Virus record (IMG/VR): IMGVR_UViG_3300046542_000628
Coordinates: 1-39,948 of that record
Strand: one strand, 5' to 3'
DNA: 39,948 bases
From: a virus
The position numbers and the translations under genes are program-made. Position 1 is the first letter of the stretch, and every line of letters starts with the position of its first letter. Below, one piece after another: positions 30,528 to 35,805 of the stretch. The notes under the pieces are model-generated. The model saw only the letters and a program-made list of their open reading frames with translations. It did no database searches and had not been told where the DNA came from.

Positions 30528-31039
30528 TCATCCATCGCAGCACAAACAGCGATGGGCCCACTAGGTCCAGCTCCCCAGGAGCACAGCAGGTTTGTGCACC
30601 ACGCGATGGGTGGCACGGCATCGAACGACCTCCCCACGACCTTTAACAAATGAGAGTCGGGCTGGCCTTCGGGTCAGTCATCAGATGGGGCGCCCGTTGA
30701 ACTACCGGATCACGCCCTGCCTAGCTGGAGCCTGCATAGCAGGGAGACGCCAGCGAACCCGGCAAGGGCCGGGCGCAATCCAGAGCGCTTTCACCGAGAG
30801 CGTTCTGGATTGAAAAATGGACTCTAGGGTGGCCGAATGACAGAGGATCAAGTGCGGCGAGATTTACTGCGTAAATTTTAATCAGCAGCGCTAAGTCCGC
30901 CTCAAAGCCATACTTTTTGCACTTATCCACAGGATTGAACCATAGGTAATCCACAATTTTGTGGACACCTCAAAAGATTCTGCTAGCATCAGGGCACAAA
31001 TCGTTCTGGCGCATAACTAGCATCCGCGATTTCAAGGCC
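30528..31039. other. Long early leader, structured and without a supported gene
   Basis: Expected 5-prime leader of the pL transcript. Contains hairpins CCCGGC/GCCGGG (30758-30773) and a 13-bp-arm inverted repeat (30777-30789 with 30799-30811), a perfect DnaA box TTATCCACA (30923-30931), a near match TAATCCACA (30947-30955) and the palindrome TCCACAA-TT-TTGTGGA (30950-30965). TGCTAGCAT (30981-30989) is an extended -10-like motif. Small frames here are not convincing. Confidence 0.55.
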
Positions 31040-31135
31040 AAAAAAAAGGACCAACCCGAGAGGGAAGGTCCTTAGTTTGGCTTCGCGCTGATTGCTACAT
31101 GTCTTGGCGGACTGCAATCAGCATCTTTGTTGCGT
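31040..31135 (-). ncRNA. Candidate antisense small RNA upstream of KilA-N gene
   Basis: Minus strand: extended -10 TGTTATAAT (31149-31141), predicted start near 31135. Then a stem GCTGATTGC/GCAATCAGC (31122-31114 with 31095-31087), and a terminator AAGGACC/GGTCCTT (31073-31067 with 31052-31046) followed by eight T (to 31040). A free-standing transcription unit of about 96 nt with no coding frame. It is antisense to the leader feeding the KilA-N gene. Confidence 0.65.
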
Positions 31136-31213
31136 CGGTAATTATAACAATTCTTGTGCCAACTTGGGCCCGAATTTTTGCCGACGCTAGGTATTGCCCA
31201 TAGAAAGGCGCCT

Positions 31214-31879
31214 ATGCAGATGAACTCTCTGGTCTACGAAGGCCACACCATCACCATTCGAGACGACGGATGGTTTAACGCAACCCAAGCAGCCAGCCAC
31301 TGGGGGAAATTCCCTGCGGAATGGCTTCGCCTTCCAGGGACCATAAGCTACATCGAGGCGTTCAAACGCAAATATGGGGATATCCCATATTTGCAAACTA
31401 AGCGCGGCGCCAGTGGCGGAACGCTTATGCATCCCAAGCTGGCTGTTCCGTTTGCTCGATGGCTTGATGATGACTTTGCGGTCTGGTGCGACGGACAGAT
31501 CGATGACATCATCCGCGGCAAACAAGACTGGAGCCGCATGCGTCACATATCCGCAGCTTCAGCCAAGCTTCTGCACGCAATGATCAAGGAGTGCCGTGAA
31601 GCATCCGGAAAAGATGTGAAAGGCCATCACTTCATGGCTGAGCACAAACTAGTGAATTCGTTGCTGACCGGCAAATACGAGGGGCTCAATCGGGATTGCT
31701 TGGTCGGATGGCAACTTGATTTCATCGGCCACTTCGACTTGCGCGACAGCATCTTGATTGCTCGTGGCGCCTCCTACGACGAGCGCAAAAGCACGTTGCA
31801 AGCAGAAGCTCTGGCATGGAAGGTCGCCAACGCCCATCGAATCGAGGCCGCGAATTCGGCGCTGCAACTAGCCGCATAA
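31214..31879 (+). CDS. KilA-N domain protein
   Basis: 221 residues from ATG at 31214 (AAAGG 7 nt upstream; ATG at 31220 possible). VYEGHTITIRDDGWFNATQAAS, FPAEWLRLPGT, KRGASGGTLMHPKLAVPFARWL and CDGQIDDII form a KilA-N DNA-binding domain (residues about 5-105). The C-terminal half (MIKECREASGKDV onwards) resembles regions found with phage antirepressor or regulator proteins. First gene after the pL leader. KilA-N proteins of phages P1 and others act as antirepressors or growth inhibitors. The upstream antisense RNA candidate recalls sar/ant of P22. Confidence 0.88.
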   Translation: MQMNSLVYEGHTITIRDDGWFNATQAASHWGKFPAEWLRLPGTISYIEAFKRKYGDIPYLQTKRGASGGTLMHPKLAVPFARWLDDDFAVWCDGQIDDIIRGKQDWSRMRHISAASAKLLHAMIKECREASGKDVKGHHFMAEHKLVNSLLTGKYEGLNRDCLVGWQLDFIGHFDLRDSILIARGASYDERKSTLQAEALAWKVANAHRIEAANSALQLAA

Positions 31880-34451: not shown

Positions 34452-34841
34452 ATGCCTGTGCAATTCGTGAACTACCGCGGCGAGGCTGTCAGCACTATCG
34501 CCCCCCCCCAGCAGAAAAAGCGGCCCAAGGCTGCCGACGAGTCGTTCCACAAGGGATGGCGCGTGACCGGCGTTCCGCCCGGCGCACTTGAGGCTGCGCA
34601 GCTCGCGCACCAGAAGAAATCCCGGCTGGATCTGCAAAACGGCAAGCAGCCCAAGGAATTCATCGACGCCGACTGGCTGCGCAATGCACGGCAGAAGCCG
34701 GTGCGGGCCAAGCCCTATGCACTCGCTGACGCCGCCGAGATCTGTGCAGAGCTGGCCCGCAAGGCCGGCTGGCTGCAGGTCACCGTCACGCCCATCGAAA
34801 AAATCGTTTCCGAAACCAGCGACACCCAACATGTTCAATAA
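34452..34841 (+). CDS. Early protein upstream of rdgC, unknown function
   Basis: 129 residues from ATG at 34452 (CTGGAG upstream). VQFVNYRGEAVSTIAPP, then a Lys-rich region (HKGWRVTGVPPG, AHQKKSRLDLQNG) and a C-terminal helix. Its end overlaps the rdgC start by 11 nt, so the two are translationally coupled. No domain recognised; the basic character fits DNA or protein binding. Confidence 0.65.
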   Translation: MPVQFVNYRGEAVSTIAPPQQKKRPKAADESFHKGWRVTGVPPGALEAAQLAHQKKSRLDLQNGKQPKEFIDADWLRNARQKPVRAKPYALADAAEICAELARKAGWLQVTVTPIEKIVSETSDTQHVQ

Positions 34842-35805
34842 GCTCATCATCTACCGCATCGCCTCCACCTGGCAGGCCGACCTGGCCTCCGTCGAAGAAG
34901 CCCTGGCGCGCACGCCCTTCACCCCATGCGGCCCCACGCAGGAGCGCTCGGCAGGCTGGATGCCGCCGCGCGGCGAGGCTGAAGGGCTGTTTGCCGAGTC
35001 CATCGGTGGCCAGTGGATCCTGCGCTTCATGAGCGAGGCCAAGTTGCTGCCTGCCAGCGTCCTCAACCGCAAGGTGCAGGAGAAGGCCGACGCGATCGAG
35101 CGCGAGACAGGCCGCAAGCCGGGCAAGAAGGAAAAGCAGGAGTTCAAGGACGAGGCCAAGCTCGACCTGCTGCCCATGGCTTTCACAAAGCAAGGGGGCA
35201 TGTGGATCTGGATCGACCCGACTGCGCGATTCTTGGTGCTCGACACCAGCAGCCAGACGCGCGCCGACGAAGTCGTGACGCTGCTGGTCGACGCCCTGCC
35301 AGGATTTGCCGTAGCCCTGCTCGACACACAGACCAGCCCGCAGGCCGCCATGGCGCACTGGCTCACCAGCCAGGAGCCGCCCGTTGGCTTCACCATCGAT
35401 CGCGAGTGCGAACTCAAGAGCGCGGACGAAGCCAAGTCCATCGTGCGCTACGGCCGCCACCCGCTCGACATCGATGAGGTCAAGGCGCACATCGAAGCCG
35501 GCAAGCTGCCCACCAAGCTCGCGCTGACATGGGATGACCGGGTTTCGCTGCTGCTGACCGAAGGCCTGCAGATCAAGAAGCTCACATTCCTCGAAACCGT
35601 GTTCGATGGCCAGGACGAAGGCGGATTCGACGCCGATGTGGCGATTGCCACGGGCGAGCTCAGCAAGCTGCTGCCCGATCTGATCGAAGCCCTGGGCGGT
35701 GAAGGCCGCACGGCGCTGGGCGAAGGCCTGCCCGCTGCGCTGCAACAACCCTCGCCGGCCGAGGTGCTGGCCGTCCTGCTGCAGCAACCAAAGGAGTCCC
35801 CATGA
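34831..35805 (+). CDS. rdgC: RdgC, recombination-associated protein
   Basis: 324 residues from ATG at 34831. FNKLIIYRI at the start, CGPTQERSAGWMPPRG, ASVLNRKVQEKADAIERETGRKPGKKEK split as ‘ASVLNRKVQEKADAIE’ and ‘GRKPGKKEKQEFKDEA’, and ILRFMSEAKLLP match the RdgC family closely. RdgC forms a ring on DNA and limits RecA loading. Phage copies may replace or modulate host recombination. Slightly longer than the E. coli protein (about 303). Confidence 0.95.
   Translation: MFNKLIIYRIASTWQADLASVEEALARTPFTPCGPTQERSAGWMPPRGEAEGLFAESIGGQWILRFMSEAKLLPASVLNRKVQEKADAIERETGRKPGKKEKQEFKDEAKLDLLPMAFTKQGGMWIWIDPTARFLVLDTSSQTRADEVVTLLVDALPGFAVALLDTQTSPQAAMAHWLTSQEPPVGFTIDRECELKSADEAKSIVRYGRHPLDIDEVKAHIEAGKLPTKLALTWDDRVSLLLTEGLQIKKLTFLETVFDGQDEGGFDADVAIATGELSKLLPDLIEALGGEGRTALGEGLPAALQQPSPAEVLAVLLQQPKESP

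Follow-up and report, generated by a model that had tools for sequence, protein, structure and literature searches.

A predicted cis-antisense RNA in the leader of a phage KilA-N gene, retained in four loci before KilA-N or Rha genes

The RNA controls of antirepressor genes in phages P22 and P1 are classical. The sar RNA of P22 (RF00262), an antisense RNA that sits in the arc-ant operon, limits the antirepressor gene, while C4 of P1/P7 (RF01695, together with c4-a1b1 and isrK) controls an antirepressor-type gene from its leader and is transcribed from the strand that also encodes its target. FinP and RepX consist of two stem-loops and a 3' tail, run antisense to the beginning of a gene, and have both stem-loops mirrored by the target mRNA (PMC8136791), and in RNAII of pMV158 the 5' tail of the antisense RNA is critical for the inhibition of translation (PMC4485353). 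Here, we analyzed a 39,948-base virus record (IMG/VR IMGVR_UViG_3300046542_000628, the whole of which is called the window) that carries, within the leader of a gene with a KilA-N domain, a unit with a -10 and a terminator of its own, both opposite in strand to the target mRNA and conserved in four members. With a probability of roughly 0.7, this unit makes a cis-antisense RNA of ~95 nt that lowers the expression of the downstream regulator, a control of the sar/FinP kind.

Closest in use are sar and C4, the former likewise as a phage antisense RNA and the latter likewise acting from the leader of an antirepressor-type gene. Unlike C4, the window RNA would come from the strand opposite to its target, and its sequence is unrelated to C4. 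The models of sar (RF00262), C4 (RF01695), and int-alpA (RF02996) have no match in the window; the same sar model finds sar beside ant in SPN3UB (L005), and the same C4 model finds C4 in L172. When the window was scanned with Rfam, no family matched the unit at threshold, and the sub-threshold matches in the window (mir-1262, Atu_C4, suhB) were dismissed as chance. Closest in build are FinP/traJ of F-type plasmids and RepX/repA of RSF1010, where two stem-loops and a 3' tail also face the leader of a regulator, a likeness of architecture only and not of homology; FinP and RepX extend over the initiation region, whereas ~75 nt separate the window RNA from the start codon. In pMV158 RNAII and the IncB/IncI-alpha antisense RNAs, pairing in the leader changes translation, as is proposed here, although they control replication and the target here is a phage regulator. 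The unit has a UUGGCG-type U-turn loop that we take to resemble the IncB/IncI-alpha targets; by inspection, possible CGCC partners of the loop GGCG occur in the window and in two further members (L002 and L008) at positions that are not conserved, with none in the fourth (L162), and no conserved counterpart of the IncB/IncI-alpha activator pseudoknot was found in the members.

The whole unit, including its -10, spans 31040-31149 on the minus strand and comprises a 5' tail, a hairpin (P3), and a terminator hairpin (P2). The earlier note had described an extended -10, a perfect 9-bp stem, and a terminator with eight T, amounting to ~96 nt; all of these can be read directly in the window and give a predicted length of ~95-97 nt. 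The arms of P3, GCTGATTGC (31087-31095) and GCAATCAGC (31114-31122), form an inverted repeat of 9 bp without mismatch, separated by 18 nt, and the core of the hairpin reads GUCCGCCAAGAC on the antisense strand and GUCUUGGCGGAC on the mRNA. The terminator reads AAGGACC-UU-CCC-UCUC-GGG-UU-GGUCCUU (31073-31046), then eight U (31047-31040), and was missed by a generic terminator scan because of its 2 × 2 internal loop. The predicted antisense RNA folds with -32.8 kcal/mol (z = -3.45 vs. shuffles) and lies entirely inside the 218-nt leader between the sense promoter and the KilA-N ATG (31214 or 31220), which begins ~75-80 nt beyond the RNA; its placement wholly in this leader, about 80 nt before the start, is thereby confirmed. 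Searched as a pattern (an extended -10, then a terminator whose stem has ≥ 7 bp), the unit occurs once in the window, the chance expectation being 0.017 in whole-window shuffles and 0.0007 in shuffles of the 563-nt intergenic stretch. A leader peptide inside the unit (MLIAVRQDM*) was rejected, its ATG being lost in L002/L008 and a ribosome site lacking.

The four members, namely the window, L002, L008, and the bacterial prophage L162, represent at least three lineages (window, L002/L008, L162). L002 came from a search with the KilA-N protein in IMG/VR and L008 from a search with the loop pattern, and a covariance model (R1) built from these two and the window found L162 in a bacterial genome (E-value 1.2e-5 for that genome, 1 of 53 searched). 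The latter is not a chance match, since a full-length KilA-N gene, 59% identical to that of the window, directly follows its unit; the region also carries an integrase and other phage genes. The leaders of L002 and L008 are near-identical through the antisense unit and still similar up to the 3' arm of P4, a stem of the mRNA leader, after which they diverge, L002 running into KilA-N and L008 into a Rha gene (PF09669, E-value 1e-15). The unit is therefore not tied to KilA-N, which corrects the earlier reading. The expected conservation of the stem in KilA-N relatives was borne out within the members, where L002 and L162 have identical arms, a re-paired terminator, and a conserved -10, but not in the KilA-N relatives L169 (56% identity) and L146-L154 (Burkholderiales), which are without the unit; most of L146-L154 have coding sequence immediately upstream of KilA-N. 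Neither was the unit found in the Rha relatives L271-L274. Judged by this distribution, it is a lineage-specific leader module. A search of 401 genomes from one family with R1 yielded no member, with only ten candidates scored per genome, and a one-mismatch pattern search in 401 genomes gave G419 as the sole real match. Exact-pattern matches in L007, L010-L016, and L163-L167 as well as 11 pattern matches in genome contigs (L132-L142) were judged by their context, mostly inside coding sequence, to be chance; L145 resembles the model in the terminator alone, and the pattern GATTGC...GTCTTGGCG occurs in 117 stretches, with a paired arm only in the already known members.

Fourfold-type sites of KilA-N are saturated (22-38% identity between members). 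Identity in the antisense unit amounts to 64-70% without adjustment and to 77% between the window and L162 when the flipped loop of the latter is aligned in its own sense. The hairpin arms CTGATTGC/GCAATCAG do not differ between the four members, each of which also has TANAAT at a constant distance from CCGAC and a T-run on the minus strand. P2 is written in different letters, with AAGGACC/GGUCCUU and an inner CCC/GGG in the window, AGGGACCAGC/GCUGGUCCUU in L002/L008, and AAGGACUG-CCC/GGG-A-UGGUCCUU in L162; its G.U pairs (L002/L008, L162) and its U.G pair (L162) are possible on the antisense RNA alone, and each of the three distinct P2 sequences is more stable as antisense RNA than as mRNA (-16.7/-15.7, -12.1/-9.0, and -16.9/-16.5 kcal/mol, respectively). 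P4 can form in the mRNA only and not in the antisense RNA, and the same holds for a further stem of the leader, P1, which in L002/L008 is re-paired with other letters (AAGUUGCC/GGUAACUU); the stability of P4 is higher on the mRNA strand in 4/4 members, most clearly in L008 (-18.9 vs. -6.9). These strand-specific events are few but concordant, each of them indicating an antisense RNA and a structured target leader.

The leader could also act as a structured mRNA, be it an attenuator or a protein-binding RNA, with an incidental or minor promoter and T-run on the minus strand. Such an explanation would fit the strong folding of the sense leader (z = -3.26), the re-pairing of P1 and P4 with sense-only wobbles, and the C4 or int-alpA-like leaders before other KilA-N genes, but we consider it unlikely given that TANAAT and the T-run are found on the minus strand of every member, the wobbles of P2 suit that strand, a sense-strand terminator is not conserved, and the strand flip of the L162 loop, described below, should be intolerable to a protein or ligand that reads one strand. 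Convergent transcription alone, with the RNA as a by-product of promoter collision, would agree with the sense and antisense promoters facing each other ~150 nt apart; it seems highly improbable, as it leaves the conserved hairpin arms, the loop core, and the mRNA stems P1 and P4 unexplained.

The choice between action in cis and in trans is informed by L162, in which the 18-nt loop of P3 is inverted. Compared at L162:1551-1584 vs. window:31088-31121, it matches the window at 13/18 positions in inverted and at 6/18 in direct orientation (P ~3e-5), and the arms are unchanged. Template switching is known to invert hairpin loops flanked by perfect arms. Such an inversion leaves the complementarity to the own leader intact because both strands flip together, whereas it would break the pairing with a remote target and alter what a protein reads on one strand. 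The inverted loop was fixed with all else kept, and pairing in cis is therefore favoured over a trans target. A trans-acting small RNA, with targets elsewhere in the phage or in the host and an accidental overlap with the leader, would be in line with the loop core being fully conserved in the window, L002, and L008, and perhaps with the 12 near-matches (≤ 3 mismatches) to the loop TGTCTTGGCGGACT in the window where 3.5 are expected, an excess that may reflect codon bias only. Since the inversion in L162 would abolish the pairing with an outside target, and the unit is always located within a KilA-N or Rha leader, we regard this as quite improbable. The unit, its strand, its conservation, and an action in cis rather than in trans are supported by the comparison of the members.

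In the BstA system, a short stretch of DNA (aba) at the gene start suppresses a KilA-N-like defence protein (PMC8585504). The unit likewise is short and precedes a KilA-N-like prophage gene at its start; aba, however, acts as DNA. Could the KilA-N protein recognize the leader as DNA, whether as an operator dyad or, in the manner of aba, for self-immunity? KilA-N domains bind DNA, and the dyads of the leader (P3 arms, P4) are invariant or retained; nevertheless, the unit serves a Rha gene in L008, where P4 retains its pairs as G.U and would work as RNA while making a poor DNA dyad, the CCCGCC terminal direct repeats of aba (PMC8585504) are absent from positions 30990-31225 of the window, PADLOC, through which alone BstA was looked for, reported PDC-S22 only, with weak scores and no BstA-named match, and the promoter and terminator would be left unaccounted for. 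We deem such an element very improbable. The half-site of P4 was also rejected as a repeated operator, a second copy being absent from the window.

For the cis-antisense RNA, we infer transcription itself, repression as its outcome, and a switch from P4 to a further hairpin, P5. The RNA, in which the 5' tail is followed by P3 for recognition and P2 for termination, would be transcribed from its own extended -10 and would pair with the leader of the mRNA that starts at the sense promoter. Pairing would begin between the P3 loops, which are complementary, and at the 5' tail, and the duplex would capture the 5' arm of P4 in the mRNA, so that the released 3' arm of P4 could join P5, closing the start codon. 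The regulator (KilA-N, or Rha in L008) would be lowered and the antirepressor-like early gene kept off in the lysogen; cleavage of the duplex by RNase III or collision of convergent polymerases could contribute. P5 is predicted in all four leaders with unlike sequences (GCUAGG/CCUAUGC in the window, GCGUGC-GCUAU/AUAGCGUAUGC in L002, GCAUAGG/CCUAUGG in L008, and CAUGGGU/ACCUAUG in L162), and its 5' arm shares sequence with the 3' arm of P4. Compared with shuffles, the folding of the P5 segment has p values of 0.013 (L002), 0.023 (L008), and 0.012 (L162). When the antisense-bound stretch was blocked in a model, the accessibility of the start codon fell from 0.64 to 0.37 in the window, from 0.33 to 0.01 in L002, and from 0.51 to 0.07 in L008. 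The P4/P5 switch is thus a proposal from modelling only.

Several observations weigh against the cis-antisense RNA or its mechanism. There are only four members, two of which (L002 and L008) have nearly identical units. The TG of the extended -10 is present only in the window and L002, being absent from L008 and L162, and the covariation of the 31087-31122 stem that had been proposed as a check does not occur in the four members, the arms of P3 being invariant. P5 is weak in the window (p = 0.077), and the start codon of L162 is closed already, the modelled block having no effect (0.01 to 0.00). The change in accessibility exceeds that of shuffled tails for two leaders, those of the window and L002, and does not do so for L008 and L162. 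As only about half of the 5' arm of P4 lies under the 5' end of the antisense RNA, this stem may stay partly closed. A further-reaching reading, which we hold to be doubtful, is that of a new antisense family forming a portable leader module, in which a two-state P4/P5 switch acts from outside the ribosome site, serves KilA-N or Rha, and flips its loop in place to change the specificity of pairing, yielding mutually non-recognising antisense/target pairs.

Table 1 Features of the unit and of the KilA-N leader in the window
Feature	Position	Strand	Evidence
Antisense promoter, extended -10 TGTTATAAT	31141..31149	-	sequence; TANAAT retained in 4/4 members
Hairpin P3, 18-nt loop	31087..31122	-	arms constant in 4/4 members; loop inverted in L162
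Intrinsic terminator, hairpin P2 and eight U	31040..31073	-	wobble pairs of L162 and L002/L008 fit only the minus strand
Predicted cis-antisense RNA, 5' end ~31134-31136, 3' end in U-run 31047-31040	31040..31136	-	
KilA-N domain gene (target), Pfam PF04383, E-value 9e-18	31214..31879	+	
Sense promoter TGGACA-16-TAGCAT, TGC ahead of -10	30962..30989	+	
Shine-Dalgarno-like GAAAGG	31203..31208	+	sequence
P1 stem of mRNA leader (GGCCAAA / UUUGGCU), encloses P2	31036..31082	+	single arm within the antisense RNA
P4 stem of mRNA leader (GCGUCGG.../...CCGACGC), encloses the antisense promoter	31132..31187	+	sense-strand wobble pairs in L008
P5 initiation hairpin (GCUAGG / CCUAUGC), 3' arm holds the start codon, 5' arm shares bases with P4	31186..31217	+	predicted
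Dyad TCCACAATTTTGTGGA, perfect 16-bp inverted repeat (as a strict palindrome, two central mismatches)	30950..30965	.	one copy in the window

Among the other features, TGCTAGNAT of the sense promoter region was also found in L162, and the dyad over the -35 of this promoter is a possible operator. An antirepressor role of the window KilA-N protein would follow from its protein class. A recombination gene, RdgC, is present in both the window (34834-35805) and L008 (478-1464), that of the window being 73% identical to one from a Burkholderiales genome and that of L008 being nearest, at the DNA level, to plasmids of Acidovorax and Variovorax; as a guess, the host group resembles Comamonadaceae.

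Other RNAs were observed in the same slot. In L172, an IMG/VR contig, positions 2275-2453 directly upstream of KilA-N hold C4 (RF01695), c4-a1b1 just below the cut-off, and an isrK-like piece. A CTAGGNTAGCTNCCGAAA-like motif that scores as int-alpA RNA (RF02996) lies just upstream of KilA-N in many phages, above the cut-off in L188:755-827 and below it in L186:2411-2487, L177:2391-2457, L190:2401-2484, L150:1387-1465, and L003:2898-2962. The KilA-N leaders of HK97 (L004) and SPN3UB (L005), at 2367-2460 each, contain another apparently structured leader (GATATGAG...CTCATATC, CCAAGAGC/GCTCTTGG), and the changes between the two, by eye, preserve pairing.

As far as these matches tell, RNA control of the KilA-N slot has precedents (C4, int-alpA-like), though not with the window RNA. 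The novelty suggested in the earlier note is narrowed accordingly: an antisense-type RNA before KilA-N has its precedent in the C4 of L172, while the precedents use other RNAs, and a literature search combining KilA-N and antisense RNA yielded no pertinent report. Because relatives hold C4 or int-alpA-like RNAs there, the KilA-N/Rha leader is suggested to be a general exchange site for RNA regulators. Antirepressor-type genes determine the awakening of prophages, and to our knowledge few further independent families of RNA controls acting on them have been described; the unit is probably a new family, outside Rfam, of this known kind of phage switch. The inverted loop represents a natural experiment: if specificity resides in the loop, RNAs of the L162 type and of the window type should not cross-act on each other's leaders.
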